Assembly (NCBI RefSeq): GCF_004310335.1
Contig: NZ_SIRS01000002.1
Location: 310,001-374,000, forward strand
DNA: 64,000 nucleotides
Reading direction: 5' to 3'
Source of the DNA: Hyunsoonleella pacifica
GTDB lineage: Bacteria; Bacteroidota; Bacteroidia; Flavobacteriales; Flavobacteriaceae
Shown: piece after piece, positions 14,694 to 41,164 of the stretch
How the letters are laid out: every line of letters starts with the position of its first letter
How positions within the stretch are numbered: the stretch's first letter is position 1
The notes under the pieces: generated by a model
Told to the model about the DNA's origin: nothing
Seen by the model: the letters and a program-made list of their open reading frames with translations, nothing else
Databases searched by the model: none
Translations under genes and position numbers: made by a program

Positions 14694-16127
14694 ATGTTAT
14701 TTAATTCTATAGAGTTTTTTATATTTCTACCAATAGTATTTATCTTATATTGGTTTGTTACTGCAAAACATTTAAAAGCGCAGAACTTGCTTATAGCAAT
14801 TTCAAGCTATGTTTTCTACGGATGGTGGGATTGGAGATTTCTGTCTTTAATAGCGTTTAGTTCTATAGTTGATTACACTATTGGTATTCTTTTACAAAGA
14901 TCAGAGTCTAAAAACAAACGAAAATTGTTGCTATGGATAAGTATTTGTGTTAACCTCGGATTTTTAGGCTTTTTTAAGTACTATAATTTTTTTGTACAAA
15001 GTTTGGTAGATTCTTTTACGCTTTTAGGACAACCTCTTGAAATTAGCACCTTAAAAATTATATTACCAGTTGGTATAAGCTTTTATACATTTCAAACATT
15101 AAGTTATACTATAGATGTTTATAATAAAAAACTGAAACCAACTAAAGATTTTATTGCATTTACTGCATTTGTTAGCTTTTTTCCTCAATTAGTAGCTGGA
15201 CCTATTGAACGTGCAACTAATTTACTTCCTCAGTTTTATACCAAGCGTAAATTTATTTATGAATTAGCAGTTGATGGTATGCGTCAGGCATTATGGGGTT
15301 TATTTAAAAAAGTTGTAATTGCCGATAACTGTGCTAAGTATGCAAACATGATTTTTAATAATTATGAAGACTATTCAGGGAGTACCTTGTTATTAGGGGC
15401 TTTTTTCTTTGCTTTTCAGATATATGGAGATTTTTCAGGCTATTCAGACATAGCCATTGGTGTGTCTAGGTTATTTGGTTTTGATTTAAAGAGAAATTTC
15501 GCATTCCCTTATTTTTCTAGAGATATTGCTGAATTTTGGAGGAGATGGCACATGTCTTTATCTACTTGGTTTAGAGACTATTTATATATTCCATTGGGTG
15601 GAAGTCGAGGAGGTACAAGTATGAAGATAAAGAATACATTTATAATTTTTCTTGTTAGTGGATTTTGGCACGGTGCAAATTGGACTTTTATTGTATGGGG
15701 GGGCTTAAATGCAATTTACTTCTTACCACTTATGTTAACAAATAAAAACAGAATAAATACAGATATAGTGGCTATGGACAGTGTTCTACCAAGTATAAAG
15801 GAAATTTTACAAATAGTATTAACATTTTTCTTGACATTAATAGCTTGGGTGTTTTTTAGAGCAGATTCTGTAACTCATGCATTTTTATTTTTAAAAGGTA
15901 TTTTTAATAGTTCTTTATTTTCGGCTTTTCAAATATTACCTAGTACAATTCTGCTTTTAGTTTTATTCTTTATCATAGTTGAATGGATAGGTAGAAGAGG
16001 AGAGTATGCAATTGACAGGATAGATACCTTAGGTAAACCTTTACGATGGTTATTTTACTTACTGATTATAATTTTAATGTTCAGTTTTACAGGTGAGCAG
16101 CAGGAATTTATTTATTTTCAATTTTAA
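14694..16127 (+). CDS. MBOAT membrane O-acyltransferase, copy 1 (AlgI-like)
   Basis: The 477-residue protein has about ten membrane helices and the MBOAT core. It shows GPIERATNLLPQF, the segment FWRRWHMSLSTWFRDYLYIPLGG, and SGFWHGANWTFIVWGG with the conserved His. Family members such as AlgI and DltB pass acyl groups across the inner membrane to a periplasmic partner. It ends in FIYFQF, as do the other three copies in the window. The adjoining SGNH protein three bases downstream is the expected partner that finishes acyl transfer to the sugar. This is the first of four such pairs and is closest in sequence to the copy at 39707. Confidence 0.93.
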   Translation: MLFNSIEFFIFLPIVFILYWFVTAKHLKAQNLLIAISSYVFYGWWDWRFLSLIAFSSIVDYTIGILLQRSESKNKRKLLLWISICVNLGFLGFFKYYNFFVQSLVDSFTLLGQPLEISTLKIILPVGISFYTFQTLSYTIDVYNKKLKPTKDFIAFTAFVSFFPQLVAGPIERATNLLPQFYTKRKFIYELAVDGMRQALWGLFKKVVIADNCAKYANMIFNNYEDYSGSTLLLGAFFFAFQIYGDFSGYSDIAIGVSRLFGFDLKRNFAFPYFSRDIAEFWRRWHMSLSTWFRDYLYIPLGGSRGGTSMKIKNTFIIFLVSGFWHGANWTFIVWGGLNAIYFLPLMLTNKNRINTDIVAMDSVLPSIKEILQIVLTFFLTLIAWVFFRADSVTHAFLFLKGIFNSSLFSAFQILPSTILLLVLFFIIVEWIGRRGEYAIDRIDTLGKPLRWLFYLLIIILMFSFTGEQQEFIYFQF

Positions 16128-16130
16128 ATT

Positions 16131-17054
16131 ATGTTTAAATTTTTAAGAAATATAATCTTCTTTTTTTTAGCAGCACTTGTTACAGGAGAGGTTGTGGTAA
16201 GGTTAACCCATGCTGTATCTGATATTCCGCAACGTACTATAGATAAAGACGGTATTCAAAAATACTATCCAAACCAAACAGGTTATTGGCTCAATGGTAC
16301 CCACACTTGGGAAATTAATGATCTTGGTTGGCCGGGGCAACTTCCTCAAAATTATGATAATTTAATTACCATAATTGGTGATTCGTTTATAGAAAATTTT
16401 ATGAACCCCAACGAATGTCATCAAGCTGTTTTGTTAAAACAAAGGTTAAGTAATTACAATTTTATGGAAGCAGCAAGATCAGGAATTTCATTTATAGAGG
16501 CTTTTGAAATTTCTAAACAATTAGATTCGCTTAATCCAATTGAAAATCTTATCTATGTCACAGATAGTGATTTTAGAGAAAGTATTGAAGATATTAAAAA
16601 GCTAGAAGATATTACCCAAGTAGACCTAAAGTCTCAAAAGGTTGTATACGGTAAAATGAAGGCTCCAAGTATGAAAAAAATGCTTTATAACTGGAAATTA
16701 GCCTATTATTTTTATAATCGATTTCCGATAAACTTTAGTAGCCTTTCGAAGTTTAAAAAAACAACAAAGGTAGATCATGGAAATAAAGATGTTAATATCA
16801 ATCAACAGATAAAATCTCTCTTGTCTTATATTAAGAAGAATTATGATATTCATAATAAAATTTTAGTATTCCATCCTAATTCAGATAAAGAGATAATCAA
16901 ATTATGTAAAGCTCAAGGTTTTTATATTATTCATTTAAACTCCAGTAATGATGAGAAAAGTTGGACCTTTGATTATGATCATCATTGGACATGTTATGGT
17001 CATGAACAAGTAGCAGAGCAAGTTAAGCAGGGACTAATAAATATAGAACTTTAA
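16131..17054 (+). CDS. SGNH-fold periplasmic O-acyltransferase partner, pair 1
   Basis: This 307-residue protein has one N-terminal membrane anchor (about 5-25) and a periplasmic SGNH domain. Block I is IIGDSFIENF with Ser at about 85, and the C-terminal Asp-His pair is in FDYDHHWTCYGHEQVA. Short anchored SGNH proteins coupled to an MBOAT gene act like AlgX/AlgJ or PatB, placing acetyl or another acyl group on exported polysaccharide. The gene starts three bases after its MBOAT partner. Its N-terminal motif (VDK/IDK, then YPNQTGYW) is shared with the partner at 18524, suggesting the two pairs arose by duplication. Confidence 0.8.
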   Translation: MFKFLRNIIFFFLAALVTGEVVVRLTHAVSDIPQRTIDKDGIQKYYPNQTGYWLNGTHTWEINDLGWPGQLPQNYDNLITIIGDSFIENFMNPNECHQAVLLKQRLSNYNFMEAARSGISFIEAFEISKQLDSLNPIENLIYVTDSDFRESIEDIKKLEDITQVDLKSQKVVYGKMKAPSMKKMLYNWKLAYYFYNRFPINFSSLSKFKKTTKVDHGNKDVNINQQIKSLLSYIKKNYDIHNKILVFHPNSDKEIIKLCKAQGFYIIHLNSSNDEKSWTFDYDHHWTCYGHEQVAEQVKQGLINIEL

Positions 17055-17066
17055 TAGCAGTTAAGT

Positions 17067-18518
17067 ATGGTATTTAATTCCTTAGAGTTTTTTATTTTTC
17101 TTCCGATTGTATTTATTACGTATTGGTTTTTTTTGAAAAAAATTATAAAGGGGCAAAACCTATTTCTTCTTGTAGTGAGTTACTTCTTTTATGGTTGGTG
17201 GGATTGGAGGTTTCTTTCTCTAATTTTCCTAAGTACTTTAGTAGATTATTTTGTAGGATTACAGATTCATGCTAATGAGAGTACGAGAAGGAGGAAACTT
17301 TGGCTTTGGTGTAGTGTTGTTTTTAATGTTGGCTTATTAGGGTTTTTCAAGTACTTTAATTTTTTTGTAGACTCATGGATTGATGTTTGCCACTTAATTG
17401 GTTATGATATTAAAAGTACATGGACATTGCGAGTACTACTTCCAGTAGGTATTTCATTTTACACGTTCCAAACTATGTCTTATTCGTTTGATATTTATTA
17501 CAAACGATTAGAACCTACAAAAGACTTTCTAGGTTTTGCAGCATTTGTCAGCTTCTTTCCGCAATTGGTTGCTGGCCCCATTGAGAGAGCATCAAATTTA
17601 TTGTCTCAAGTATTGAACCATAGATTATTTAGTTACGAGCAGTGTGTTTCTGGTCTAAAACTCATATTGTGGGGATTGTTTAAAAAAGTAGTAATAGCTG
17701 ATGGTATAGCCCCAATAGTAGATGATGTTTTTTCTAATTATACTACTTACCCAGCTTCTACCTTAATTTTAGGAGTAACTTTGTTTAGTTTTCAAGTTTA
17801 TGGAGATTTTAGTGGCTATTCTGATATAGCAATAGGTACTTCAAAACTCTTTGGTATAGAATTGAAGTCAAACTTTAAGTTTCCAAACTTCTCTAGGAAT
17901 GTTGCTGAGTACTGGCAGCGTTGGCACGTATCTTTATCCACATGGTTTAGGCATTATATTTATATTCCGCTGGGTGGGTCTAGAGTAAGTAAGTTAAAAT
18001 CAGTTAGAAATATTTGTATCATATTTTTAGTAAGTGGTTTTTGGCATGGTGCTAATTGGACATTTATTTTTTGGGGAGCATTTCATGCTTTGGTATTTAT
18101 TCCAGTATTTTTAATGGGAAGAAATACTATTTATAAACATTCTGTAGTTGGTGAGAATACTTTGTTCCCCTCTTTAATTGAAATAGGTCAGGTATTGTTG
18201 ACTTTTACAATTGTTACTTTTTCTAGGATATTTTTTAGATCAGAGTCCATTACAGATGCTTTTAGTTTTATAGAAAGAATAATATCTAATTTCACATACG
18301 CTCCTTACAACCATCCATTAGGCTATCGTATGATTGATTATTATATACTTATTGTATTGTTTGTTATTTACGAATATATTATAAGGAAGGATGAAAGGTC
18401 TCCCTTTAATTTTAAGTCTAGAGTAGTGAGGTTTATAATTTACTCAATTGTTATTATGTTAATGTTACTGTTTTATGATAGTAGTGTAGATAGATCATTT
18501 ATATATTTTCAATTTTAA
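17067..18518 (+). CDS. MBOAT membrane O-acyltransferase, copy 2
   Basis: This 483-residue MBOAT protein has the same layout as copy 1, with EYWQRWHVSLSTWFRHYIYIPLGG and SGFWHGANWTFIFWG, and ends in FIYFQF. It differs clearly in the middle and C-terminal third, so it is an older duplicate, not a recent copy. It lies 12 bases after the first SGNH gene and six bases before its own partner, making a four-gene operon from 14694 to 19486. The acyl group cannot be read from sequence; acetyl is the default. Confidence 0.92.
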   Translation: MVFNSLEFFIFLPIVFITYWFFLKKIIKGQNLFLLVVSYFFYGWWDWRFLSLIFLSTLVDYFVGLQIHANESTRRRKLWLWCSVVFNVGLLGFFKYFNFFVDSWIDVCHLIGYDIKSTWTLRVLLPVGISFYTFQTMSYSFDIYYKRLEPTKDFLGFAAFVSFFPQLVAGPIERASNLLSQVLNHRLFSYEQCVSGLKLILWGLFKKVVIADGIAPIVDDVFSNYTTYPASTLILGVTLFSFQVYGDFSGYSDIAIGTSKLFGIELKSNFKFPNFSRNVAEYWQRWHVSLSTWFRHYIYIPLGGSRVSKLKSVRNICIIFLVSGFWHGANWTFIFWGAFHALVFIPVFLMGRNTIYKHSVVGENTLFPSLIEIGQVLLTFTIVTFSRIFFRSESITDAFSFIERIISNFTYAPYNHPLGYRMIDYYILIVLFVIYEYIIRKDERSPFNFKSRVVRFIIYSIVIMLMLLFYDSSVDRSFIYFQF

Positions 18519-18523
18519 AGGAT

Positions 18524-19486
18524 ATGAAAAAATTAATTTTAAAATGTTTTGTTTACGCTGTATTAATAGTATTAGCTTTAGAAGTATATGTTCGTGTATT
18601 TCATTTAACCAAAGATTATCCTTCAAGATATGTTGATAAATATGGAGTAGAGAAGTGGGTGCCTAACCAATCAGGGTTTTCGGTTACTGGGAACAGACGA
18701 CAAAATTTTTCCGAATATCATATTAATAATTCGGGATTTAATTCATATCGAGAATATAATCCGATAGAAAATAAAATTGAAATTGCACTCGTTGGTGATT
18801 CTTTCATAGAAGGCTTCCATCAGAATTATTATAATTCAATTGGCAAAAAGATAGAGAATCAAATACAAGGTATAGATGTATATGAATTTGGGTATGCTGG
18901 ATATGATTTTGCAGATCAATTGCATTTGGTACATTCTTACAAAAAGAAGTTTGATTTAATTGATCACGTTATTTTTGGATTAAAATTTGAAAATGATTTA
19001 ACAAGGTCTACGTACAATGTTGTACAGGACCGAATGCGATTAGAATCTTCTTTATATAGAAATCTTAGAAAAGTAAAAATATTGGCTTATACTCAAAGTA
19101 TCGGTATCTTAGATCCTCTAAAACAAACCCCAAATAGATTTTTTTCTTTTATAACTGGGCAATCAAAGTCCAAGAAAAAACTAACCGAAGATCAAAAACT
19201 TGCAAAAGAAAAAAATAATAATGAAGAATATCTTAAAAACTTTAAAAGTTTAATTGATACTTATGGATACGATAAGGAAAAGTTTACTTTGTTAATAGAC
19301 AAAAGCAAAACTCCAAATTTATTCTTAGAATATTTAGACAATAATAATTTTAACTGGGTAGACTTTTCTAGAGATTTAGAGGCTTCTAAGCGGCCAACTA
19401 CATTAATATATGATAAGCATTGGAATAATAACGGAAGAACTATTATTGCTAACAAACTAACTGAATATTTAAAAGATAAAATTTAG
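18524..19486 (+). CDS. SGNH-fold periplasmic O-acyltransferase partner, pair 2
   Basis: The 320-residue protein has an N-terminal anchor (about 4-22), block I LVGDSFIEGFHQ with Ser at about 93, and a C-terminal DKHWNNNGRTIIANKL supplying the Asp-His pair. It resembles the pair 1 partner near the N terminus (VDKYGVEKWVPNQSGFS) but carries a longer, Lys-rich middle (about 200-235). It closes the plus-strand operon and ends two bases from the convergent FemAB-like gene, with no clear terminator between them. Confidence 0.78.
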   Translation: MKKLILKCFVYAVLIVLALEVYVRVFHLTKDYPSRYVDKYGVEKWVPNQSGFSVTGNRRQNFSEYHINNSGFNSYREYNPIENKIEIALVGDSFIEGFHQNYYNSIGKKIENQIQGIDVYEFGYAGYDFADQLHLVHSYKKKFDLIDHVIFGLKFENDLTRSTYNVVQDRMRLESSLYRNLRKVKILAYTQSIGILDPLKQTPNRFFSFITGQSKSKKKLTEDQKLAKEKNNNEEYLKNFKSLIDTYGYDKEKFTLLIDKSKTPNLFLEYLDNNNFNWVDFSRDLEASKRPTTLIYDKHWNNNGRTIIANKLTEYLKDKI

Positions 19487-19488
19487 TT

Positions 19489-21636
19489 TTATAGTCTATA
19501 CAAGGGAAAAAAACTAGAATCTAAATCACCGGTTTTATTTTTTGTAACTAGTTCTTTATATGTTTTTTCATTAGTTATATGTTTCCATATTTTAAAAGGC
19601 TTAAAATCTTTAGAGAAAGAAGCTTTAAATCTAAATAGTTCATCTTCTTGATTTCCTAACCCACCACCTAAATTAAAGTATTTAAAACCTTCTTCAGTTC
19701 CTTTTAAGCGCATTTCGTCTATTAACAGCCTAATAGGTGATATGTTTAAATATTCATTTCGTGTACCAGATATGTGGTATTGAATAATATTGTTAGTTTT
19801 TACCATCATTGCTGCTGATATAATATCTTCTCTTTCTTTATCTATTGCTAAAAGTACACTAGTTTTGTAATCGTCACTTTTAATGAAATCAAAAAAGTAT
19901 TGCTTTGAGAAGTAATATTTGTCTTCAGCATTAACTCTATCCATATTTTCATAATATAGATCTATGAATTTGAGAATATCTTCTTTACTATTACTTAATC
20001 TAAAATCAAATGTTTTTCTACATTTATTAATATAACGCTTAGTAGTTTTAGAAAAAGTAGTTCTTTGTTCGTCAACATTTTTAGTCAAATCAATATTTAC
20101 CACATTACTTAATTCTTCTATTTTGCCAATACCTTTTAAAATTAACTCTTGATAATCAATGAAAGGATTTAATCTTGAGAAGACAGATACAATTTTTTCT
20201 TTTTCAAAAAACTCATTTAACTTTTTAACGAAAATACTATTATCAAAAGCACTATTTATATTAATTTGCAATGGACCAGCGTATCCATAAACAGAAGTAG
20301 CATCAAAATATTCAGTATTTGGGATTTTTCGTTTAATTAATGGAAGGTAAATCTTTTTATTATCTTCTGTGTATTCAATTAATAATGGGGTTTCGTCTTC
20401 TAGTTTAGATAATGTATGATAATCATAAGTGTGATAAAAGTCATAGTGTCCAACTGATTTTATGGCATCTTTCCACTCTTTTTTTGTAGATATTATTCGT
20501 AATTCTTCGGTTTTAATATTCAATTTTTTTGCAATTATTTTTTTTTGGCCATATAAAGGAAAATATTTTTCTGAATTTTTAACATCATCCATCGCATCCG
20601 TAAACTCAACTTTAATATTCTTAATTAGGTTGTTATATATAGGTTGATTAATGACTTTCCTTCCTGTATAAAATACTATATCTTTATCTAATGGAAAAAA
20701 TGATTTCTTATATTGGTATAATCCATCATTGTTGCTTCTACCACCACCTAGAACATAATATTTTTTATTGTTTTCAATAGCCCATTTCATTACTTCAATT
20801 TTTAAAAAATCATTAGGCCTCATATTAAAATATTCGGAATGTGTACCTCCTAAATGTGAGTAGAGCGTATTGCCATCAATTAAAATCAATTCAGCAGAAA
20901 TGGCTATATCTTCCTTAAATATTAGAACTAATATAGTATCATTTGGGTTGTTGTTAATTAAATCCTCAAAATAGGTTTTCGAATAATAATAATTTAAAGC
21001 AGCTTTGTTTCTATTTAATGATTTAATATAGATATCATGAAATTTTTCTAAGACATCTGTGTCAATATTTTTAGCGTAAATTTTTGATTTTAAATTGAAT
21101 TTTAGAGACTTACGATAATTGTTTCTAACTTTTTGTTTAAAATTATTCCAGAGAGTTTCAAAATCAAATAAAGTTCCTTTAACATTATTTAATGTAGGGA
21201 CTAAATGGCCAGAATAGTGCTTATGATTTCCAAATAAATTAAACCGAATAAATTCAGTTATAATATTGTTTTTAGAGTACCACGAGTCTAAATAATGCCA
21301 AAATAGTGAGATTTCTTCTGCTGAATTTGTAGGATTAAAAATTGGACCTCCATAGCCATAAGGTGAGGATGCATCAAAAAAATCAGTGTTGTTAGAATCG
21401 CATAAATCATAATCATTTATTTTTTTTAAATAAATGGGCATTAGGGCTATTGTCTCATGCTTTTTTTTAAGAGTGGCATACATAAAGTTATTTTGAATAA
21501 CTGCGTTAATATACTCATACGAATAAAATATATTAACTCCATTTATTTCTCTTAAATGGGCTTTGTAGTTTGCTACATGAGTTTTGTTTTTAACTTCTAT
21601 GCATTCAAATTTATAAACATCTTTTTTTAATTGCAT
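19489..21636 (-). CDS. Tandem FemAB/GNAT-like aminoacyl- or acyltransferase
   Basis: The 715-residue protein consists of two homologous halves (about 1-360 and 361-715). Parallel blocks are DASSPYGYGGP with DATSVYGYAGP, YYYSKTYFEDL with YYFSKQYFFDFI, GGTHSEYFNMRPNDFL with SGTRNEYLNISPIRLL, and LGGGRSNNDGLYQYKKSF with LGGGLGNQEDELFRFKASF. These are the marks of FemAB-related double-GNAT proteins, which attach aminoacyl or acyl groups to amino sugars or peptides. Single FemAB proteins are about 330 residues, so this is a fused duplication. It is the last gene of the long minus-strand unit, close to the initiating sugar transferases. The substrate is inferred only. Confidence 0.75.
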   Translation of the reverse strand: MQLKKDVYKFECIEVKNKTHVANYKAHLREINGVNIFYSYEYINAVIQNNFMYATLKKKHETIALMPIYLKKINDYDLCDSNNTDFFDASSPYGYGGPIFNPTNSAEEISLFWHYLDSWYSKNNIITEFIRFNLFGNHKHYSGHLVPTLNNVKGTLFDFETLWNNFKQKVRNNYRKSLKFNLKSKIYAKNIDTDVLEKFHDIYIKSLNRNKAALNYYYSKTYFEDLINNNPNDTILVLIFKEDIAISAELILIDGNTLYSHLGGTHSEYFNMRPNDFLKIEVMKWAIENNKKYYVLGGGRSNNDGLYQYKKSFFPLDKDIVFYTGRKVINQPIYNNLIKNIKVEFTDAMDDVKNSEKYFPLYGQKKIIAKKLNIKTEELRIISTKKEWKDAIKSVGHYDFYHTYDYHTLSKLEDETPLLIEYTEDNKKIYLPLIKRKIPNTEYFDATSVYGYAGPLQININSAFDNSIFVKKLNEFFEKEKIVSVFSRLNPFIDYQELILKGIGKIEELSNVVNIDLTKNVDEQRTTFSKTTKRYINKCRKTFDFRLSNSKEDILKFIDLYYENMDRVNAEDKYYFSKQYFFDFIKSDDYKTSVLLAIDKEREDIISAAMMVKTNNIIQYHISGTRNEYLNISPIRLLIDEMRLKGTEEGFKYFNLGGGLGNQEDELFRFKASFSKDFKPFKIWKHITNEKTYKELVTKNKTGDLDSSFFPLYRL

Positions 21637-21669
21637 TGTTCTAATCTCTATAGAATTAATATGCTTAAA

Positions 21670-22278
21670 CTATTTTTTAGTTCCTGTAAATTCTGGCATG
21701 TTTGTCCCTTCATTGTTATTGATGCCTGAAGGAATTATGATATGTTTTATAGTTAACAAAATTATTTTTAAATCTAAATTTAAGGATTGATTTTTTACGT
21801 ACCACACATCTAGCTCAAATTTTTTTTCCCATGTTAAAGCATTCCTCCCCATTACTTGTGCCCAACCTGTTATACCGGGAGTTACATTGTGCCTTTGTTT
21901 TTGAAAATCGTTGTACAAAGGTAAATAATGTACTAATAAAGGCCTAGGGCCAACTATACTCATATCTCCTTTTATCACATTAATCAATTGTGGTATTTCG
22001 TCTATAGAATATTTTCTAATGAAAGCTCCTATTTTGGTTACTCTATTTAAACTATGAACATTTTTCTCATCTCCAGGTTTTAAATCTTTCATGGTTTTAA
22101 ACTTAATAATCTTAAAAACACTTTCACTTTTACCTGGACGTAGTTGAAAGAAAAACGGTTTACCGCTATTAGTAATTAATAAGCATATTGTAATGATTAC
22201 AAATACAGGAGATAAAAGCAAGAAAATAGTAGCTGCTGAAAGAAAATCAAATAAACGTTTAATATTTTTATATTTCAT
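21670..22278 (-). CDS. Initiating undecaprenyl-phosphate sugar-phosphate transferase, copy 1 (PglC-like)
   Basis: The 202-residue protein is a small monotopic phosphoglycosyl transferase. It has one N-terminal re-entrant helix (about 10-35), FKIIKFKTM, the Asp-Glu site in KYSIDEIPQLINVIKGDMSIVGPRP, and PGITGWAQVMGRN. It would transfer a sugar phosphate from a UDP-sugar to undecaprenyl phosphate to start repeat-unit assembly. It lacks the long N-terminal membrane domain of WcaJ types. A second copy lies just upstream, separated by the formyltransferase gene. The short C-terminal tail INNNEGTNMPEFTGTKK is not shared with the other copy. Confidence 0.92.
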   Translation of the reverse strand: MKYKNIKRLFDFLSAATIFLLLSPVFVIITICLLITNSGKPFFFQLRPGKSESVFKIIKFKTMKDLKPGDEKNVHSLNRVTKIGAFIRKYSIDEIPQLINVIKGDMSIVGPRPLLVHYLPLYNDFQKQRHNVTPGITGWAQVMGRNALTWEKKFELDVWYVKNQSLNLDLKIILLTIKHIIIPSGINNNEGTNMPEFTGTKK

Positions 22279-22360
22279 ATTTGTAAAAGTAAAATAGGCT
22301 TTTATACTTGCCTATATTTTACGTTTAAAAGTTATTATTTTTGATAAGAAACATTCATAT

Positions 22361-22963
22361 TTACTTTTCTTTAGTATGTAATTTTTCAATTTCAGAAATA
22401 GTTTCTAAAACTATTTTTTTTCCGTTTTTAGCAAATTTGGGATAAAGTGTTTCAAAAGTATCGCTTTCTAACACTTTTATAGAGTGCTGACATAATATAA
22501 TGCCTTCATCGATTTTATCATCAATAATATGGGTTGTTATTCCTGTAATTTTTACGCCGTAATCTAACGCATCTTGAATAGCTGTTTTAGTTGCTAAGAA
22601 GCTAGGAAACAAAGAAGGGTGAATATTTATTATACGATTAGGGAAAGTTTTTAACATTGGTTGTTTGATTATATATTTAAAATTTAGCATAAAGATATAG
22701 TCAATGCCTCTACTTCTTATCTCTTTAGTTAATCGCTCTTGATAGTCTAATAGGCTTGGGTAATCTTTTTTAAAGACTTGTAATGTTTCGATATTATGTT
22801 TTTCTGCATAGTCTTTAGCTCCACAGGGAGCCTCTTCATAGATGACTAAATCTATGCTAGAGTTTTTTAGTTTTCCTTTTACAAAAGCTTTAAGGGTGTC
22901 CTTGGCATTTCTTCCCCAACCGGTTACTAAAATGGCCCACTTAATGTTTTGATCTAATCGCAT
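22361..22963 (-). CDS. Formyltransferase-family protein (PurN-like fold), probably acting on a sugar
   Basis: The 200-residue protein has the folate-dependent formyltransferase core. The glycine loop TGWGRNAKDTL is at about 14-24, the catalytic Asn-His in INIHPSLFPSF at about 113-115, and the Asp in DKIDEGIIL at about 152. In PurN the loop reads SGxGSN and binds the glycinamide ribotide phosphate; here Ser is replaced by Arg. This and the location inside the polysaccharide operon suggest a nucleotide-amino-sugar or lipid-linked sugar substrate. The start overlaps the end of the upstream sugar transferase gene by 23 bases, so the two are translationally coupled. N-formylation of a QuiN4N-type sugar is the likeliest role. 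Confidence 0.72.
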   Translation of the reverse strand: MRLDQNIKWAILVTGWGRNAKDTLKAFVKGKLKNSSIDLVIYEEAPCGAKDYAEKHNIETLQVFKKDYPSLLDYQERLTKEIRSRGIDYIFMLNFKYIIKQPMLKTFPNRIINIHPSLFPSFLATKTAIQDALDYGVKITGITTHIIDDKIDEGIILCQHSIKVLESDTFETLYPKFAKNGKKIVLETISEIEKLHTKEK

Positions 22964-23555
22964 CTAAATCTTGAATAACGGAATTTGGATTTACTACCAC
23001 ATCTTTTGAGGTAATAACTTTTTGTATTGTTTGTATAAAAATTTTCACGTCTAACCCCATACTTAAGTTCTCAACATATTCAACATCCTTTTTCAGTCGA
23101 TCATTCCAGTTTAATAAATTTCTACCTGAAATTTGGGCTAATCCAGTAATGCCTGGTCTTATATCGTGTCTTTTTTTTTCAGTTTCTGAATAATAAGGTA
23201 AATATCTTATTAATAGGGGTCTAGGGCCTATAAAACTCATATCACCTTTTATTATATTGATGAGTTGTGGTAGCTCATCTAAAGATGTTTTTCTAATTAC
23301 TTTACCTATTGTAGTTAAGCGTTTTTCATCAGGTAATAGATTTCCGTTTTTATCCCTATCATCATTCATTGTTTTAAACTTCATGATGCTAAATGTTTTT
23401 TCGTTTTTTCCAGGGCGTTTTTGAACAAAAAAGGGATTTCCTTTGTTAAGAATTGCCAAAGATATAATCAAAGTTAGAAATATAGGTAATATAAGTAATA
23501 AACCCAATGTAGCTAAGAATAAATCTAAAAGACGTTTAAAAAAAAGTCTATACAT
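22941..23555 (-). CDS. Initiating undecaprenyl-phosphate sugar-phosphate transferase, copy 2
   Basis: The 204-residue protein has the same PglC-like plan as copy 1: N-terminal membrane-embedded helix, FSIMKFKTMNDD, KTSLDELPQLINIIKGDMSFIGPRPL and RPGITGLAQISGRN. The C terminus is longer and different (VNPNSVIQDLDAIRSKH). Having two initiating enzymes in one unit means either two repeat units or lipid carriers, or one of them acts on a modified sugar. It overlaps the formyltransferase gene by 23 bases and follows the carrier protein gene after 42 bases. Confidence 0.92.
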   Translation of the reverse strand: MYRLFFKRLLDLFLATLGLLLILPIFLTLIISLAILNKGNPFFVQKRPGKNEKTFSIMKFKTMNDDRDKNGNLLPDEKRLTTIGKVIRKTSLDELPQLINIIKGDMSFIGPRPLLIRYLPYYSETEKKRHDIRPGITGLAQISGRNLLNWNDRLKKDVEYVENLSMGLDVKIFIQTIQKVITSKDVVVNPNSVIQDLDAIRSKH

Positions 23556-23597
23556 TTTACGAGAAAGGCGTTTTTATTTTAAACTTTATGGCTATCT

Positions 23598-23852
23598 CTA
23601 ACTATGGATTATATTTTGTTCTTTTTGAATAGCCTTTATTAAATCTCCAACAGTATCCATATTCATTAAATCCATTAATTTGAACTTAATATTGAATGAT
23701 TTCTCTATATCATTAATAATCATCATGTGTGTTATGGACTCCCAACCATCTACATCATGAGATGTAGTAGATTCAGTTAGAGTAAAATTATTGTGCTCTA
23801 GAATAGTGCTAAAAGATTTGGATATTTTTTCTAAAATGTCTCTATTTTTCAT
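23598..23852 (-). CDS. Acyl/aminoacyl carrier protein
   Basis: This 84-residue four-helix carrier protein has the phosphopantetheine site in DVDGWESITHMMIINDIEKSF, with Ser at about 39. The GWESITHM form belongs to stand-alone carrier proteins found in polysaccharide and non-ribosomal systems, not to the fatty-acid synthase ACP (DSLDTVEL). Its first 11 bases overlap the end of the adenylation-enzyme gene, so it is almost certainly loaded by that enzyme. The likely recipients are the neighbouring GNAT-like and FemAB-like proteins. Confidence 0.87.
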   Translation of the reverse strand: MKNRDILEKISKSFSTILEHNNFTLTESTTSHDVDGWESITHMMIINDIEKSFNIKFKLMDLMNMDTVGDLIKAIQKEQNIIHS

Positions 23853-25341
23853 GGTTTAATTGGTTTCTTAATTCGTGTCTATCTATTTTGCCATTAATGT
23901 TATGCGGGATAATATTTATAAATCTAATTTGGGTTGGAATCATATAATGAGGTAGTTTTTCCTTTAAATATTTAATGGTAGGTAATACATCAAACTTGTC
24001 TGATTCTAGTATTAAATATAGTTCTTTATTTCCAGTGCTATTTTCAATATCTAGTACTACAAAATTTTTATTTGGAATCGTTTTTTTAACATGATACTCT
24101 ATTTCTCCAAGTTCAATTCTATATCCTTGTATTTTAACTTGAAAATCATTTCTGCCTACATACATGTAGTCGCCATCTTCATCTTTATAACAAAGATCTC
24201 CACTTTTGTAATATCTTTTAGGCTCTCCATCAACTTTTTTTATGAAAAATGATTTTTGGTTCTTTGATGAGTTATTCCAATATCCAGGTGTAACTTGCGC
24301 ACCGGCAATTGCTAACTCACCTGTAATACCATCCGGTACGGCATTATTATTTTCATCTATAACTAAATAATCGGTATTTTTAAAAGTTTTACCAATTGAA
24401 ATGATGTTGTTTTTATTTTTTCTTTTACTTGGTGGTGTATACAAATAGTAACCGCAATAAATTGTAGTTTCAGTAGGACCGTAGTAATTTATTATTTGTG
24501 CATTTGGTATACATTTATTCCACTCATTTGCTATGTCATCAAATAGCTTTCCTCCCGCAAAGCAAGATACTTTTACTTGTGGGGCATTTATTTCAGCAAA
24601 ATAAGGTTTTAAATAATTTATTATTGATGGTACAGTAATTAATACTGTTAATTTATGTTTTTCTAATAAACTAAATACTTGCATGTATTTAATTTTGCCT
24701 TTAGGAATGGTATATACTGAGGCACCATACAACAATGGTAATAGATAGGATACAACAGACATATCAAAAGTTAATTCAAACATTTGTAAACACTTGTCTT
24801 TTTCATTTATAGAAAAATAGTTGTCGTGATGTAATTCTTTTGCAAATGCTTCTATGTTGTTAAAAGTTATGGGAACACCTTTTGGTTTTCCAGTACTTCC
24901 TGAAGTGAAAATCATATATGCTACACCATTTTTATCATTGGGTTTAGGTTTTAAGTCTTGAATCTTATTAGTTATTTTTGATGTATTTATTAGTTTTAGT
25001 TTTTCAACTGTAAAGGTTTGATTGTTAGAATTAAGTAATGTTTCACAACCAACAATTTCTAAAATTTCAATATTTCTATCATCTGGAAATAAAGGATTTA
25101 AAGCAACATATCCTTTATTTTCTAACCATAGAGCAATAATACTAGCATAGGTATAAATATCATCGTGAGCAAAAAGCCCAATAATTTTTTCATCAACACC
25201 TATTTTTTGTATAATTTCAGAGCGTATTTGATTTACTAAATGATTAAATTCTTTATAGGTATAATACTGCTCGTTAATACAAAATGCAGTATTAGAACTG
25301 TGTTCTTTAATAGAATTATAAAGCGTATTGATTAATTCCAT
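23842..25341 (-). CDS. AMP-forming amino-acid/acyl adenylation enzyme (DltA-like)
   Basis: The 499-residue enzyme activates a carboxylic acid with ATP and loads it on a carrier protein. It has the A3 loop YMIFTSGSTGKPKGVP (about 142-157), NYYGPTETTIYCGY (A5), YYKSGDLCYKDEDGDYMYVGRNDFQVKIQGYRIELGEIE (A7-A8) and the catalytic Lys in HNINGKIDRHEL (A10). The stand-alone format and GYRIELGEIE match DltA/NRPS-type amino-acid ligases more than acyl-CoA ligases. It overlaps its carrier protein gene by 11 bases and lies 12 bases after a GNAT-like gene. The amino acid cannot be read by eye with certainty. Confidence 0.87.
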   Translation of the reverse strand: MELINTLYNSIKEHSSNTAFCINEQYYTYKEFNHLVNQIRSEIIQKIGVDEKIIGLFAHDDIYTYASIIALWLENKGYVALNPLFPDDRNIEILEIVGCETLLNSNNQTFTVEKLKLINTSKITNKIQDLKPKPNDKNGVAYMIFTSGSTGKPKGVPITFNNIEAFAKELHHDNYFSINEKDKCLQMFELTFDMSVVSYLLPLLYGASVYTIPKGKIKYMQVFSLLEKHKLTVLITVPSIINYLKPYFAEINAPQVKVSCFAGGKLFDDIANEWNKCIPNAQIINYYGPTETTIYCGYYLYTPPSKRKNKNNIISIGKTFKNTDYLVIDENNNAVPDGITGELAIAGAQVTPGYWNNSSKNQKSFFIKKVDGEPKRYYKSGDLCYKDEDGDYMYVGRNDFQVKIQGYRIELGEIEYHVKKTIPNKNFVVLDIENSTGNKELYLILESDKFDVLPTIKYLKEKLPHYMIPTQIRFINIIPHNINGKIDRHELRNQLNHEK

Positions 25342-25353
25342 CTGTAATTTGTA

Positions 25354-26451
25354 TTACGCAAAATTACCATCCCTGTCATTGATAAAGGTATTATCAAAGT
25401 CTATATTAATATTATTATATGCTAAAGCATAAAGTTTGCGTTTATTTGTATATAGGTTAATAAATTTATTTTTAATGTAATTGCCCAATTTTTCATTTTC
25501 AGTTTGCAAATTTGTAGCCTTAGTTTGCAAAATATTTTCCATTAGGGCATCAGCACAACATGCCATATCATCATCATCAGAAATAAAATAACGTACCATA
25601 GCTTCTTTTCCTCTTATTAGGAATGAAGTGAAGCCAATAATTTTATCTTCTTTTTTTATGGAATAACTTATATTATATGCTCTTTCATGAATACTACTTA
25701 CAAGACATTTATGTTGCTGTTTTGCACATAAAGGAGCATTAGTGTATTGACTATTATCTATTTGCCAGTTGATATATTCTTTAGATTTTGGGACTAAATC
25801 TTCTTTACAGAAAGGACTAATAAATTCCCATAAGGTTTCGTCTATATTTGAAATATATTCGTATTTAAGATTTTTAGTTGTTTTTATTGTTTTTTGCTTA
25901 TTGAATATGGATACTACATACAAGGAAAAAGTATCTATTTTGCTAAGTAAATATTTAAAGTATTTTAATTTTTTTTTCCTATTCATAAGGATAACCGAAT
26001 CTAAGTTGAAGATTATGTAGTATCTGGTTCTATGTGCAAATTCTTTAAATGGTTGTCTTTTATAATATTCCTCAGCTGATTTCCCTAAAAACTTTATTAT
26101 AGCCTTATTATTTATAATATTCATAGCTATATTCATAGTATAAGTGGGTAAAATGGAATCTTTGTATTTTTCTGAGATCCACCAACGTCTACTCCAAAAT
26201 ATTTTCTCAGTACCAGTAGTCGTATTTATATAATCTGGAACTAAAAAAATGAAAGAAATAATAGTGTTATGCTCGATACCTATAATAGCACAAACATCAC
26301 TTTTGGCTATTCTATCGTTTTTTAATATCCAGTAAGCTTTACTTTTTGAAAAAGGAATTTGAACTGCTGTATTGCCCCAATATGTGTTTTTGACAATAGC
26401 AGTTTGTAACTCTTCTTTAGTTAAAGAAGTAATTTTAATATCCTCTCCCAT
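25354..26451 (-). CDS. GNAT-like acyltransferase-type protein, substrate unknown
   Basis: The 365-residue soluble protein has no clear signal or membrane segment. Two mixed alpha/beta halves are suggested: one around IIGIEHNTIISFIFLVPDYI and WSRRWWISEKYKDSILPTY, the other around NISYSIKKEDKIIGFTSFLIRG and MVRYFISDDDD. This is similar to distant GNAT or FemAB-type folds found in polysaccharide loci. No motif is strong enough for a sure family call. Being 12 bases upstream of the adenylation enzyme and carrier protein genes, it is a good candidate for the transferase that moves the activated group to a sugar. This is context-based inference. Confidence 0.5.
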   Translation of the reverse strand: MGEDIKITSLTKEELQTAIVKNTYWGNTAVQIPFSKSKAYWILKNDRIAKSDVCAIIGIEHNTIISFIFLVPDYINTTTGTEKIFWSRRWWISEKYKDSILPTYTMNIAMNIINNKAIIKFLGKSAEEYYKRQPFKEFAHRTRYYIIFNLDSVILMNRKKKLKYFKYLLSKIDTFSLYVVSIFNKQKTIKTTKNLKYEYISNIDETLWEFISPFCKEDLVPKSKEYINWQIDNSQYTNAPLCAKQQHKCLVSSIHERAYNISYSIKKEDKIIGFTSFLIRGKEAMVRYFISDDDDMACCADALMENILQTKATNLQTENEKLGNYIKNKFINLYTNKRKLYALAYNNINIDFDNTFINDRDGNFA

Positions 26452-26529: not shown

Positions 26530-27684
26530 CTACGAAAGGCTATTATATTCTTTGAGAAGGGCATTCCAAACCTCAGTACGTTTATAATTTGAAACAATAA
26601 TTTTTCTAGATGCTTTTCCCATAACTATAGAAGCACTTTTATTGTTATAAACTTGAATCATAGCATTGTAGAGAGCTTCATCGTTTTTTACTGGAATTAT
26701 GATACCGTTTTTACCATGATTTATGATTTCATTACAACCATTAATATTAGTGACAATACTAACTAGTTCCATAGCCGCAGCTTGCATTAGTACATTGGGA
26801 AAACCTTCTCGATAACTTGGAAAAGTTAGAGCATTAGATATAGAAAAATATGGTCTTACATCATTAACCCATCCAGTTGTTATAATATTATTGTTTGTAT
26901 TTATAATATGTTCAGAATCGGGAGAGAGAGGGTCTAGTTCCCTTTCATAACCCCCAACCAACAATAATTTAGTATCTGAAAACTCTTTATTAAGTTTTGA
27001 AAAAGCTTTGATTAATTCATTTAATCCTTTGTCTGCAACTAGTCTACCTAAAAAAATAAATATAAAACTGGTATCTGGTATTTTTAGTTGTTTTCTCAAT
27101 TTAATTTTGTAACTATCATTATATAACAATGGGTTAAAATGATTAGTGTCAATACCATTAGAACTTCCTTTACCTATAACTCTAAGTTTCTTTTTTGATG
27201 TAAACTTATGCTTTAAGATGATATCTACTAAGCCATAAGAATTAGGGTATATTTTTGTAGCACAGCGATATGTTATTTTTTCCACTGTATTAAGAATAAG
27301 TCGCTTAAAACCTGTCGCTTCAACTAATGGTAAACCTGCTATTGTATGTAACCTATGTGGTACGTTAGCTATTAATGCTGCTAACATACTAAGAGTACCA
27401 GCTTTAGGGGTATGGGAATGTACAATATAAGGCTTTTCTTTTTTAAAAATTTTATAGAGTTTCCAAACTGCTTTTAAGTCCTTCATTGGAGTTATTTTTC
27501 TTGTCATTTCTACAGGTATAACTCTAACCCCCTCATCTTTACCAACCTTTAACAGCCTAGATTCGTTTCCTGTAGATGATATGCCAACAACATCAAAATA
27601 TTGTGACATAAAATTTAACTGACCTGTTAGTAGACCACCAAGAGATTCGGGAACAGTAGTAACTCTAATAATTTTTTTTTTCAT
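26530..27684 (-). CDS. Glycosyltransferase family 4 (CapM-like)
   Basis: This 384-residue GT-B enzyme starts with GGLLTGQLNFMSQYFDVVGIS and has HSHTPKAGTLSMLAA and VPHRLHTIAGLPLVEATG, typical of the CapM/WbpH-type branch that often adds the second sugar. The C-terminal donor site is YREGFPNVLMQAAAME: the first Glu of the usual E-x7-E is kept but the second position is Gln, as appears usual for this branch. The C terminus has INGCNEII. It starts one base after the upstream asparagine synthase-like gene ends, showing tight operon structure. Confidence 0.88.
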   Translation of the reverse strand: MKKKIIRVTTVPESLGGLLTGQLNFMSQYFDVVGISSTGNESRLLKVGKDEGVRVIPVEMTRKITPMKDLKAVWKLYKIFKKEKPYIVHSHTPKAGTLSMLAALIANVPHRLHTIAGLPLVEATGFKRLILNTVEKITYRCATKIYPNSYGLVDIILKHKFTSKKKLRVIGKGSSNGIDTNHFNPLLYNDSYKIKLRKQLKIPDTSFIFIFLGRLVADKGLNELIKAFSKLNKEFSDTKLLLVGGYERELDPLSPDSEHIINTNNNIITTGWVNDVRPYFSISNALTFPSYREGFPNVLMQAAAMELVSIVTNINGCNEIINHGKNGIIIPVKNDEALYNAMIQVYNNKSASIVMGKASRKIIVSNYKRTEVWNALLKEYNSLS

Positions 27685-27685
27685 T

Positions 27686-29596
27686 TTATAACTGCTTGTA
27701 GATGTTGTAGTACCACTTCTGGAAGCAATAAAATGTCCATACTTTAAACGTATTGTCTTCTTTTCCTGTTATATGATTTTTAACAAGCTTTATAGTATTA
27801 TCAACATGGAAAATATTTTGATCTATGAGCTCTTTTTCTACAATATAGCTTTCTAATTCTTTTCTGAGTCCAGATTTTAACCAATCTCCAACAGGAGCCC
27901 CAAAACCACTCTTGCTTTTATCTAAAAAATCTTCTGGAAACTGATCTCTAAAAGCTTCTTTAAGAATATATTTTTTATTCCAACCTTTCATTAAGTACTC
28001 TTCAGGTAAAGTATTCGTATAATTCCAAATCTTTTTGTTTAAAAAAGGTGCTCTACATTCTAATGAATTTAACATACTAGTTCTATCTACTTTAACAAGC
28101 ATATCTCCTTCAAGACTTGTAACCTTATCGATTAACCTAAAATCTGTTAAAGTTTGCGGATGCATAATTTTAGTATCTTCTTTGTAGGTGTTAAATAGGT
28201 CTTCGTGTAAATATTTAGGAAGTAAAAAACTACCCAAAGCATTTTTTTGAAAACCTAATGATAATATATCCCAATAATATTCTCCACCATTATAATCAAT
28301 AGAGTTTAATAACCTTTTGATTTTAAATCGTTTTCCTCTGTTATCACTAGAAGTTTTCAAAAATGGACTAGTAACGCTTTTCATTATGTTGTGGATACTC
28401 TTAGGAACTATATTGGTATATTTAGTATTTAATTTTCCTATGTAGTACTTGTTATATCCACCAAATACTTCATCGCCTCCATCACCTGTTAAAGCAACTT
28501 TTACGTGGTCTTTAGTTCTATTTGAAACTAAATAGGTTGGGAGAGAAGAAGAATCGGAAAAGGGTTCGTCAAAATTCAATAAAATTTTATTTACATCTTC
28601 AACTAAATCTTTTTCATTGATTATAAATTCATGATGGTTACTGTTAATTAGTTTTGCAACCACTCTGGATTTTTCACTCTCATCATAAGACTTTTTTTCA
28701 AACCCTATGGAAAACGTATCAATAGGTTTTGATGTGTGCTGCGATAAGCATAATGATACAACAGAAGAGTCAACACCACCAGATAGAAAAGTACCAATTG
28801 GAACATCAGAGACCGATCTACTTGTTACACTTTCATACACTAAATCTTTTACATTCTCTTTAGCTTCGTCAAAAGGGATATCAATTTTAGAAACAGTATT
28901 ATCTGTTTCTTTTTCAATTTGATGAATAGAAAAATTATTACGTTCTATATCGTATTCAATAAAATGATTTTGCTTAAGCTTATGTATATTTTCATAAATG
29001 GTGTAAGGAGCTGGAATATAAGTGAGTCTAAAATAAAGATTGAGACCTTTACTATTTATTGCAGGTTTTTTATCTATAACACTTGTAATGGATTTTAATT
29101 CTGAAGCCCAAACAAATTGATCATTACTTTTGTAATAGTATAAAGGTTTTTCTCCGAAGAAATCTCGTGCAATGTATATTTTGTCTTTATTTTTATCATA
29201 TATACTAAAACCAAACATCCCATCTAGTTCTTTAAAAGATTCTACGCCAAACGTTTCATAAAGTTTTAATATAACCTCCGTATCACTTGTTGTATTAAAA
29301 CTAACCCCTAACTTCTCTAACCTTGCCTTTAATTCTTTATAATTATATATCTCACCATTAAAAACAATTACAATACTTTTATCATCTGAGAAAATAGGTT
29401 GTTTACCTGAGCTTAAATCTATAATAGATAGTCTGCGCATTGCTAGGGCAATTGAATGGGAATGGTTTGATTCTGTAAACACTCCATCTTCATCTGGTCC
29501 TCGATGAAAAATTAGAGAATTCATCTTACTCATATTTGCATTGAGTTTCTCTTGGCTTTCGTGACCATATTTTACGTAACCATTTATTCCGCACAT
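27686..29596 (-). CDS. asnB: AsnB-type glutamine amidotransferase, copy 1
   Basis: The 636-residue protein has an N-terminal class II glutaminase domain with nucleophile Cys2 (MCGINGYV) and RRLSIIDLSSGKQPIF. A C-terminal ATP-pyrophosphatase domain follows with SGGVDSS and the ALTGDGGDEVFGGYNKY block. Asparagine synthetase is the family name, but in polysaccharide loci such enzymes usually amidate uronic-acid carboxylates (as WbpS does). The nearby UDP-uronic-acid genes fit that. A second, different copy lies two genes upstream. General asparagine synthesis is a less likely role here. Confidence 0.88.
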   Translation of the reverse strand: MCGINGYVKYGHESQEKLNANMSKMNSLIFHRGPDEDGVFTESNHSHSIALAMRRLSIIDLSSGKQPIFSDDKSIVIVFNGEIYNYKELKARLEKLGVSFNTTSDTEVILKLYETFGVESFKELDGMFGFSIYDKNKDKIYIARDFFGEKPLYYYKSNDQFVWASELKSITSVIDKKPAINSKGLNLYFRLTYIPAPYTIYENIHKLKQNHFIEYDIERNNFSIHQIEKETDNTVSKIDIPFDEAKENVKDLVYESVTSRSVSDVPIGTFLSGGVDSSVVSLCLSQHTSKPIDTFSIGFEKKSYDESEKSRVVAKLINSNHHEFIINEKDLVEDVNKILLNFDEPFSDSSSLPTYLVSNRTKDHVKVALTGDGGDEVFGGYNKYYIGKLNTKYTNIVPKSIHNIMKSVTSPFLKTSSDNRGKRFKIKRLLNSIDYNGGEYYWDILSLGFQKNALGSFLLPKYLHEDLFNTYKEDTKIMHPQTLTDFRLIDKVTSLEGDMLVKVDRTSMLNSLECRAPFLNKKIWNYTNTLPEEYLMKGWNKKYILKEAFRDQFPEDFLDKSKSGFGAPVGDWLKSGLRKELESYIVEKELIDQNIFHVDNTIKLVKNHITGKEDNTFKVWTFYCFQKWYYNIYKQL

Positions 29597-34739: not shown

Positions 34740-35669
34740 CTAAATCTGTTTTTGGGGTAAAGGAACCATGTCACCTAATATTCTATCCCATTTTTCAGGA
34801 ATTATAGGCCTATTACCTCCATCATGGTGAAAGGTTAATTCTCCAAAATATAATTTACCATCTACGTCATACCAATCGACTCTTACATAACAAAAATCTG
34901 TAGATAATTTTTCGGATAAGGCTAACATTTCGTCTAGCGTTTTAGGTTTTTCTACATCTTCATCCGAAGGATCTGTAGCTTTCCCATTTTCTTTTAAAGA
35001 AGACCATTTATAAGGTTCTCTTTCCCATTTTGTATTGTACCAATTCCTATGATGATTATCAGAATCTCTGTCAATATCGACCTGAATCATATTTGCTTTT
35101 CCATTAAAACAATGAACTTTATAATCAAAAGGGATCTTTCCATTTTTGCTTATCAAAAGCTTTTCTACAATAATACATGGTTCTATATTTTTATATTGCC
35201 ACTCCTTAGATCTTGGATAATAATTCTTTTTTAAACGTTTTTTTAGACTTTCTTGAGCTTCGTTCCAATCTGTTTTAGATTTGTCAAAAACAAAAATCCC
35301 GCCACCACTATCATGATTTGCTTTAATAATAAAAGGAGGACTAGGTAGGTTCTCCGGTATGATTTCTTCAACATTTTTGGTTTGATAAAATAAAGGGACT
35401 AAATATTCTTCTCCTACTTTTTCTTTAATATATGATCTTACAGCATATTTATCAGCACATATGGTATGCAAATCTGTTCTATCAAAAAGTTTTAGCCAAA
35501 CTATTTTTTCATTAAGAGTTTTCGGATTATCTAAATCTAATTCTCTTTTAAATGATTTTTTAAACCTTCTTTTTAAGTAAATTTTTTCGGGCATAACATT
35601 GTATAAAAAAAATAAATGTATTCTTTGCAAGAAAGTATTTAGATATAAGTATTTTATAATGTTTTTCAT
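34740..35669 (-). CDS. TupA-like ATP-grasp protein
   Basis: The 309-residue soluble protein has the features of the TupA-like ATP-grasp family. These are DNPKTLNEKIVWLKLFDRTDLHTICADKYAVR near the N terminus, PPFIIKANHDSGGGIFVFDK, IVEKLL and the Mg-binding end VRVDWYDVDGKLYFGELTFHHDGG. Founding members are tied to teichuronopeptide synthesis, and relatives lie in polysaccharide loci where they are thought to join an amino acid or peptide to a sugar carboxylate by an amide bond. That fits the other amidation and aminoacylation genes here. The acceptor is inferred. Confidence 0.8.
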   Translation of the reverse strand: MKNIIKYLYLNTFLQRIHLFFLYNVMPEKIYLKRRFKKSFKRELDLDNPKTLNEKIVWLKLFDRTDLHTICADKYAVRSYIKEKVGEEYLVPLFYQTKNVEEIIPENLPSPPFIIKANHDSGGGIFVFDKSKTDWNEAQESLKKRLKKNYYPRSKEWQYKNIEPCIIVEKLLISKNGKIPFDYKVHCFNGKANMIQVDIDRDSDNHHRNWYNTKWEREPYKWSSLKENGKATDPSDEDVEKPKTLDEMLALSEKLSTDFCYVRVDWYDVDGKLYFGELTFHHDGGNRPIIPEKWDRILGDMVPLPQKQI

Positions 35670-41149: not shown

Positions 41150-41164
41150 TAGCTTATTAGTATC

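Follow-up and report, generated by a model that had tools for sequence, protein, structure and literature searches.

A cassette of three genes, encoding a GNAT-like protein, a stand-alone amino acid adenylase and a carrier protein, heads a seven-gene unit in a 64,000-nucleotide stretch of the Hyunsoonleella pacifica genome (contig NZ_SIRS01000002.1, positions 310,001 to 374,000 of the forward strand; hereafter the window), which holds a polysaccharide locus and belongs to a 4.13 Mb genome. We regard it as rather probable that the cassette serves the carrier-dependent aminoacylation of an amino sugar in the surface polysaccharide. From the gene identities, their linkage, the anchor residues, the fold and the loss of a coenzyme A (CoA) loop, all read from the sequence, we infer the reactions and their order, with an amino acid as donor and an amino sugar as acceptor. 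The adenylase would activate the amino acid with ATP and load it onto the phosphopantetheine of the adjacent carrier, from which the GNAT-like double-domain protein would take the aminoacyl group, instead of an acyl group from CoA, to form an amide with the free amine of an amino sugar. The acceptor is probably a 4-amino-4,6-dideoxy sugar supplied by the PglF-like and DegT-like enzymes, and aminoacylation could occur either on the uridine diphosphate (UDP)-sugar or once PglC has moved the sugar to undecaprenyl phosphate. The tandem FemX-like protein might add one or two more (amino)acyl groups, for which aminoacyl-tRNA is a possible donor, and an amine would be capped by the formyltransferase. 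According to the list of open reading frames together with Pfam and NCBIfam, the unit lies entirely on the minus strand, with short or overlapping junctions:

25354-26451, minus strand: GNAT-like gene, 365 aa, double-GNAT fold in the AlphaFold2 model
23842-25341, minus strand: stand-alone amino acid adenylase (PF00501; TIGR01733 nearest model)
23598-23852, minus strand: carrier protein (PF00550; Ser39 as phosphopantetheine site)
22941-23555, minus strand: PglC-like phosphoglycosyl transferase a (PF02397, 202 bits)
22361-22963, minus strand: formyltransferase, PurN/Fmt-like N domain (PF00551, 112 bits)
21670-22278, minus strand: PglC-like phosphoglycosyl transferase b (PF02397, 202 bits)
19489-21636, minus strand: tandem FemX-like protein, two domains, 715 aa (PF13480 twice, PF04339)

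A sequence-only reading of this DNA had the adenylase gene overlapping the carrier gene, which it does by 11 bases, and placed the GNAT-like gene upstream and the tandem FemAB-like gene at the end of the unit, as the coordinates confirm. The two PglC-like genes and the formyltransferase that it listed after the carrier are present, but the formyltransferase sits between the PglC-like pair.

The GNAT-like gene was found in 9 of the 199 genomes of the family (the window genome counted), and the GNAT-like family was used to collect 73 distinct loci of named genomes, all from Flavobacteriaceae genera or from that family except for two metagenome-assembled genomes (one Flavobacteriales, one Bacteroidia). 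The GNAT-like, adenylase and carrier genes were complete in 71 of these loci, in the same order and on one strand every time (71/71), with gaps of -36 to 191 bases between GNAT and adenylase and of -13 to 75 bases between adenylase and carrier; L042 and L077 are loci cut by contig ends. Since the GNAT gene served to find the loci, its own constancy is uninformative, and it is the constancy of the adenylase and carrier that informs. The gene set is conserved, coherent and beyond chance. The earlier remark that such a set had not been described agrees with the open-access literature searched, in which no description of an adenylase-carrier-GNAT route to N-aminoacyl sugars was found; analogues with other transferases exist.

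The best model for the adenylase was TIGR01733 (AA-adenyl-dom), at 311.2 bits (E 9.7e-93) and narrowly below the cut-off of 317.4. The amine- and carboxyl-binding positions, which we take to be Asp235 and Lys517 in GrsA numbering, are represented by Asp193 and Lys485, each invariant in 73/73 copies, and because both anchors are kept the enzyme should activate an amino acid. The carrier matched PF00550 (24.4 bits, cut-off 20.8), its attachment residue Ser39 was kept in 72/72 copies and its best PDB relative was 2lml. The presence of an adenylase-carrier activation module, as originally proposed, is thus supported by the conserved residues, and the genome encodes two members of the phosphopantetheinyl transferase family. 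The pocket codes of the 73 adenylases, with a position mapping checked only by eye, on 8xjz and its Ser code, were DFVMSGYVYK (50), DATMIGHVCK (8), DFVLSGYIYK (5), DMVTCAYIYK (3), DATMVGHVCK (3), DFVMCGSVTK (2) and two singles; the window has DMVTCAYIYK, as do L031 and L036. The codes are not known to match any established signature and no amino acid was assigned; bulky pocket residues hint at a small one.

Loading of a hydroxy or fatty acid by the adenylase is very improbable. It would resemble the acyl carrier protein (ACP)-dependent acylation of 4-amino-4-deoxyquinovose (Qui4N) in Flavobacterium psychrophilum, in whose O-polysaccharide genes (wfpD, wfpG) a dedicated carrier with a 3,5-dihydroxyhexanoyl group is proposed to feed an N-acyltransferase on Qui2NAc4N (PMC6519341, in the part available). 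That system differs in that the acyl chain comes from ketoacyl synthases and the transferase is a PglD homologue (same part of PMC6519341). PglD-type genes do occur in 46 of the 73 loci; however, all 73 adenylases have Asp at the alpha-amine position, the best model for the window enzyme is that of amino acid adenylation, and no ketoacyl synthase or reductase was among the Pfam-scanned recurrent neighbour families (not every family was scanned).

With the Dlt system (DltA-DltC-DltB-DltD) the unit shares a stand-alone amino acid adenylase and a carrier, and the adenylase is related to DltA (3fcc, 180.7 bits), whereas the window has a GNAT-like partner, and sugar-nucleotide and phosphoglycosyl transferase genes in place of teichoic acid. 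'Dlt-like', the term used in the sequence-only reading, does not hold in the strict sense. Two curated DltA models scored below threshold (261.2 of 559.85 and 280.7 of 476 bits); the Cys at one pocket position that presumably makes DltA selective for D-Ala was in 0/73 adenylases, 69 of which have Gly there and four Ala, the window among the latter; and an MBOAT gene directly followed the carrier neither in the window, where a PglC gene comes next, nor in any of the 71 loci.

Comparable adenylase-carrier pairs with other transferases were found elsewhere in the phylum. On a plasmid of Segatella copri (L122:11950-15848), in a polysaccharide locus that also has phosphonate genes, an adenylase 42% identical to that of the window is followed in a row by a carrier, an N-acyltransferase and an alanine racemase; this locus differs from the window in the AAC(3)-type of its transferase, in the adjoining racemase and in the DltA-type Cys, which is kept. 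D-alanine as the substrate in the window, suggested by the likeness to DltA and by this racemase, is weakened by the absent Cys and by the finding of no racemase homologue in the 73 loci at E 1e-10. With the S. copri adenylase as query, relatives were found in 26 other genomes of the class at E 1e-80, of which 22 were examined (20 fetched, plus L196 and L198; four were not fetched). An MBOAT gene was in the fetched stretch of 14 of the 20 Bacteroidia loci, often directly after the carrier, and the MBOAT-linked adenylases have the Cys in 11/15 cases and Ser in the other four, in a set biased toward Cys by a query that itself has it. The GNAT-linked adenylases of other families have Ser (L196) and Gly (L198) at this position, so that MBOAT-linked adenylases look Dlt-like and GNAT-linked ones do not. 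The transferases that adenylase-carrier pairs seem to supply in the surface loci of Bacteroidota are thus of at least three kinds: MBOAT, AAC(3)-type and GNAT-like. Among these loci, L210 (1920-2819) has a gene for a fused GNAT-carrier protein that stands between those of adenylase and MBOAT, and several Dlt-like Bacteroidia loci have a gene of 215-225 aa between adenylase and carrier, of GNAT type in the one scanned (L212).

A true Dlt-like O-alanylation, in which the carrier would feed an MBOAT/SGNH pair and a D-alanine ester would be formed outside the inner membrane, is decidedly unlikely in view of the missing Cys, the DltA cut-offs and the genes that follow the carrier. It could draw on the MBOAT genes of the related Bacteroidia loci, on MBOAT and SGNH-like genes at most 9 kb from the GNAT gene (48/73 and 46/73 loci), on SGNH distances that do track GNAT and adenylase (r 0.72 and 0.67), and on the window itself, in which four MBOAT/SGNH pairs are present. 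The distances of the nearest MBOAT, on the other hand, gave r 0.06 with GNAT and 0.04 with adenylase, a comparison weakened by mixed MBOAT paralogues, and the window MBOAT genes are on the strand opposite to the unit. These four MBOAT-type genes lie within 14694-19486, 39707-42052 and 49626-51959 (three called by Pfam, the fourth, 17067-18518, by likeness), and the gene after each was named SGNH-like from position alone, with no SGNH match in Pfam.

For the transfer itself, the GNAT-like protein is the candidate that we prefer. It had no match in Pfam or NCBIfam at 0.001, nor in PDB sequence searches with the single sequence or a profile, and no relative in the plasmid collection. Its AlphaFold2 model, built from 58 sequences, had a predicted local distance difference test (pLDDT) of 93.7 and a predicted template modelling score (pTM) of 0.90; Foldseek matched it to the double-GNAT fold of N-myristoyltransferases (NMT) and VipF (E ~4e-11, TM 0.39-0.57), and in a viral fold library the matches were NMT, GNAT and one FemAB-named protein. 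The CoA pyrophosphate loop motif of GNATs, which we take to be [QR]xxGx[GA], is absent from the window protein, whose loop is KYKDSI.

Relatives outside the 73 loci were searched for with a profile in 395 genomes of the class (20 matched) and with the L198 protein in 395 genomes of the phylum (7 matched). From these, 17 and 4 places were fetched, which together with L029 gave 22 relatives; three of the 20 class places (two short contigs of one genome and one fragment with stops) and two of six places from the phylum search (marginal) were left out, and a third, remote family was too distant for use. Alignment A2 left out GNAT rows that were > 82% identical or outside 355-375 aa. Adenylase and carrier lie beside the GNAT gene in three of the 22 relatives (L196 and L198 from other families, L242 from the window's family), while neither was found in the fetched stretches, some of them short, of the other 19. 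The linked copies number 78 (the window, 74 copies in the 73 loci, with L077 counted although its adenylase was not seen, and L196, L198 and L242). Both CoA-loop glycines were present in 13/19 unlinked vs. 0/78 linked copies, and the first glycine alone in 18/19 vs. 2/78; Fisher's test on the loop contrast gave 6e-12, which is not a fair probability, since the copies are related and the tree allows a single switch.

A polysaccharide deacetylase gene was beside or near the GNAT gene in 15 of the 19 unlinked relatives (called by Pfam on three of these and on that of L198), and with such neighbours the family probably has freed amines as its substrates. The loss of the loop in the carrier-linked branch, taken together with the deacetylases of the wider family, is the strongest mechanistic clue. 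An amino sugar is the likely acceptor because the relatives have deacetylase partners and the window has DegT and PglF-like genes, which supports the earlier proposal that the module is placed to load a group onto an amino sugar, as do the neighbouring sugar transferase genes. We tentatively suggest, as a conjecture that may well fail, that deacetylase-partnered, CoA-dependent N-acyltransferases gave rise, with surrender of the CoA site, to a new carrier-using double-GNAT family, served by an exchangeable adenylase of the nonribosomal peptide synthetase (NRPS) type, and that FemX-like proteins extend the product to a short peptide side chain.

An apparent exchange of adenylases is seen by comparing the window with the locus of Jejuia pallidilutea (L030), in which the GNAT (70%), carrier (85%), PglC (80%), formyltransferase (83%) and GT4 (80%) proteins are close to those of the window, whereas the adenylase is only 57% identical and has another pocket code, with the difference spread over its whole length and no clear mosaic border. 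The adenylases closest to that of the window are in L031 and L036 (74%), and the GNATs of these loci are 63% and 45% identical. As these identities disagree, the adenylase seems exchangeable within an otherwise stable cassette. In Spongiivirga citrea (L043:9001-14500) the order is GNAT-adenylase-GNAT-adenylase-carrier, with a pyridoxal phosphate (PLP) decarboxylase downstream; its adenylases have the codes DATMIGHVCK and DFVMSGYVYK and one shared carrier, and the duplication of both proteins with a single carrier points to GNAT and adenylase as working partners. In distance and class-agreement sets from which L042, L077 and L043 were left out, GNAT distances were correlated with those of the adenylase (r 0.86), second FemAB (0.78), GT4a (0.72), SGNH (0.72), carrier (0.70) and FemAB (0.66), and the nearest GNAT had the same code class in 60/70 cases.

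The tandem FemX-like protein, whose halves are 31% identical to each other, contains both PF13480 matches of the genome. A profile of 21 FemAB-type domains matched FemX (3.7e-15) and an aminoacyl-tRNA-dependent peptide synthase (0.0019), and the window protein alone matched FmhB (0.0019) and FemX (0.029). Its relatives were found in five plasmid records, four regions of which were fetched; on the plasmids of Cetobacterium, Priestia and Deinococcus, though not of Azospirillum, the FemAB-type gene is in operons with nucleotide-sugar dehydratase, aminotransferase and sugar transferase genes, and no adenylase or carrier was annotated within 12 kb in these three of the four regions, in gene tables that are incomplete. 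A carrier is therefore no requirement for FemX-like proteins, and of the two the GNAT-like protein is more likely to be its partner. This bears on the alternative that the FemX-like proteins are the carrier-dependent transferases, with the GNAT-like protein modifying the carrier-bound amino acid or acting in docking, which we consider unlikely. Relatives of FemX do move aminoacyl groups, FemAB-type genes were present in 70 of the 73 loci (profile count), some of them as fusions with PglD (L034) or an FAD protein (L086), and in L196, from another family of the class, one follows the GNAT-like gene; the trio without FemAB in L091 and L198 (the latter on a short contig stretch) and the plasmid regions speak against it. 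A further double-GNAT exopolysaccharide protein that is FemX-like is HfsK of the Caulobacter holdfast, for which the same pathway as the deacetylase HfsH was suggested (PMC5362036, in the part available); it differs in that donor and acceptor are not known, and that part of the paper mentions neither adenylase nor carrier.

Several observations weigh against transfer from the carrier by the GNAT-like protein. The adenylase-led search of the class gave a GNAT-like partner in only two of the 22 genomes examined, and the FemX-like proteins, nearly as constant as the cassette, could be the transferase. GNAT and adenylase do not stay together in every case, as the window and L030 illustrate; one code class dominates the comparison of classes, and in L043 the nearest relative of the first GNAT is of a different class. 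Among the 19 unlinked copies, 6 likewise lack at least one loop glycine, and the contrast is weakened by L239-L241, the relatives found last, which have a deacetylase and an imperfect loop. According to the tree, a single ancestral switch may account for both the lost loop and the linkage to the carrier. Pfam finds no such deacetylase in the 73 loci, and the acceptor amine must therefore come from elsewhere there. The pocket code, finally, points to no clear amino acid.

For the amine, the window offers a likely source in the DegT/PglE-like aminotransferase (55737-56861). The other genes that bear on the proposed aminoacylation are:

26530-27684, minus strand: GT4 glycosyltransferase, just upstream of the unit (PF00534)
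55737-56861, plus strand: DegT/PglE-like sugar aminotransferase (PF01041, 316 bits)
56885-58846, plus strand: PglF/CapD-like nucleotide-sugar 4,6-dehydratase (PF02719, 398.5 bits)

According to Pfam, GT4 enzymes, two AsnB-like proteins, a TupA ATP-grasp protein, a Wzy-type protein and a MurJ-like flippase are encoded upstream of the unit, and farther in the window there are two UDP-sugar dehydrogenases, two epimerases, the DegT and PglF-like enzymes, and Wza- and Wzc-type proteins. The formyltransferase, whose score of 130 bits with the PurN model is under the cut-off of 150.1, probably acts on a sugar or aminoacyl amine.

Across the related loci, PglC-type enzymes were present in 69/73 (at least two in 56/73), the GT4 cluster that includes the 26530-27684 gene in 63/73 and an FAD-NAD(P)-binding family, some members of which are fused to FemAB, in 48/73; this label and that of the PglD-type family come from Pfam on representatives. 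The gene next after the carrier was PglC in 31/71 loci and of PglD-type or hexapeptide kind in 26/71. The formyltransferase was the least conserved member, with two families in 12 and 6 of the 73 loci. As PglD, FAD protein and FemAB occur in fusions (PglD-FAD in L054:12654-14891, FAD-FemAB-FemAB in L086:13899-17594, PglD-FemAB in L034:11893-13644), the three belong to one pathway.

These neighbours also bear on the idea of a small NRPS-like pathway for a secondary metabolite that is merely located inside the polysaccharide locus, the least probable of the explanations considered. A stand-alone adenylase with a carrier is NRPS-like, and further AMP-binding genes occur in the genome, of which two lie in long frames next to a phosphopantetheinyl transferase gene; but Pfam and NCBIfam found neither a condensation nor a thioesterase domain in the unit, and phosphoglycosyl transferase, PglD and GT4 genes are neighbours in most of the 73 loci. 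Lincosamide synthetase (LmbC, LmbN-CP, LmbD/E/F/V) likewise uses an adenylase and a carrier to join an amino acid to an amino sugar by an amide (PMC4351081, in the part available), but its product is an antibiotic and not a polymer, and the condensing proteins are others (same source and part).

XrtA/PEP-CTERM models were the best ones for the FemAB gene (TIGR03019), one AsnB (TIGR03108) and the GT4 (TIGR03088), and ranked sixth for the adenylase (TIGR03098). Membership of that system was rejected, as all models were below cut-off and exosortase PF09721 had 0 matches in the genome; the part of PMC1569441 looked through in this context has nothing on these genes. The cassette is neither a Dlt nor an XrtA system.

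Marine O-antigens have been known for a long time to contain N-aminoacyl and N-(acyl-aminoacyl) amino sugars, including N-acetyl-alanyl amino sugars, and 4-amino-4,6-dideoxyglucose occurs with formyl, N-acetylglycyl and N-(hydroxybutyryl)alanyl groups (PMC3210612, in the part available). With a conserved set of three genes, of which the adenylase appears exchangeable, the question of their route becomes testable, and the GNAT presents a case of a seeming change of donor, from CoA to a carrier protein. From the cassette it could become possible to predict which amino acid a polysaccharide bears, and, if the proposed scheme is true, swapping the NRPS-type adenylase would change the amino acid on the surface sugar.

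Further genes of these loci were recorded in passing. In the window, a TupA-like ATP-grasp gene (34740-35669) and AsnB-like amidotransferase genes (27686-29596 and 30774-32627) lie upstream of the unit on the same strand, possibly for additional amide chemistry on the polymer, and a MurJ-type flippase gene (36872-38212) stands where Wzx is usual for a polysaccharide locus. A 434 aa protein of L055 (7057-8361) with no Pfam match belongs to a family present in 40/73 loci, which carries no label in the window, and a beta-helix protein of ~650 aa (L055:2471-4426) to one in 42/73. In L035 (2062-7700), five single FemAB-like genes stand in a row upstream of the cassette, in addition to a tandem one (Pfam on two).

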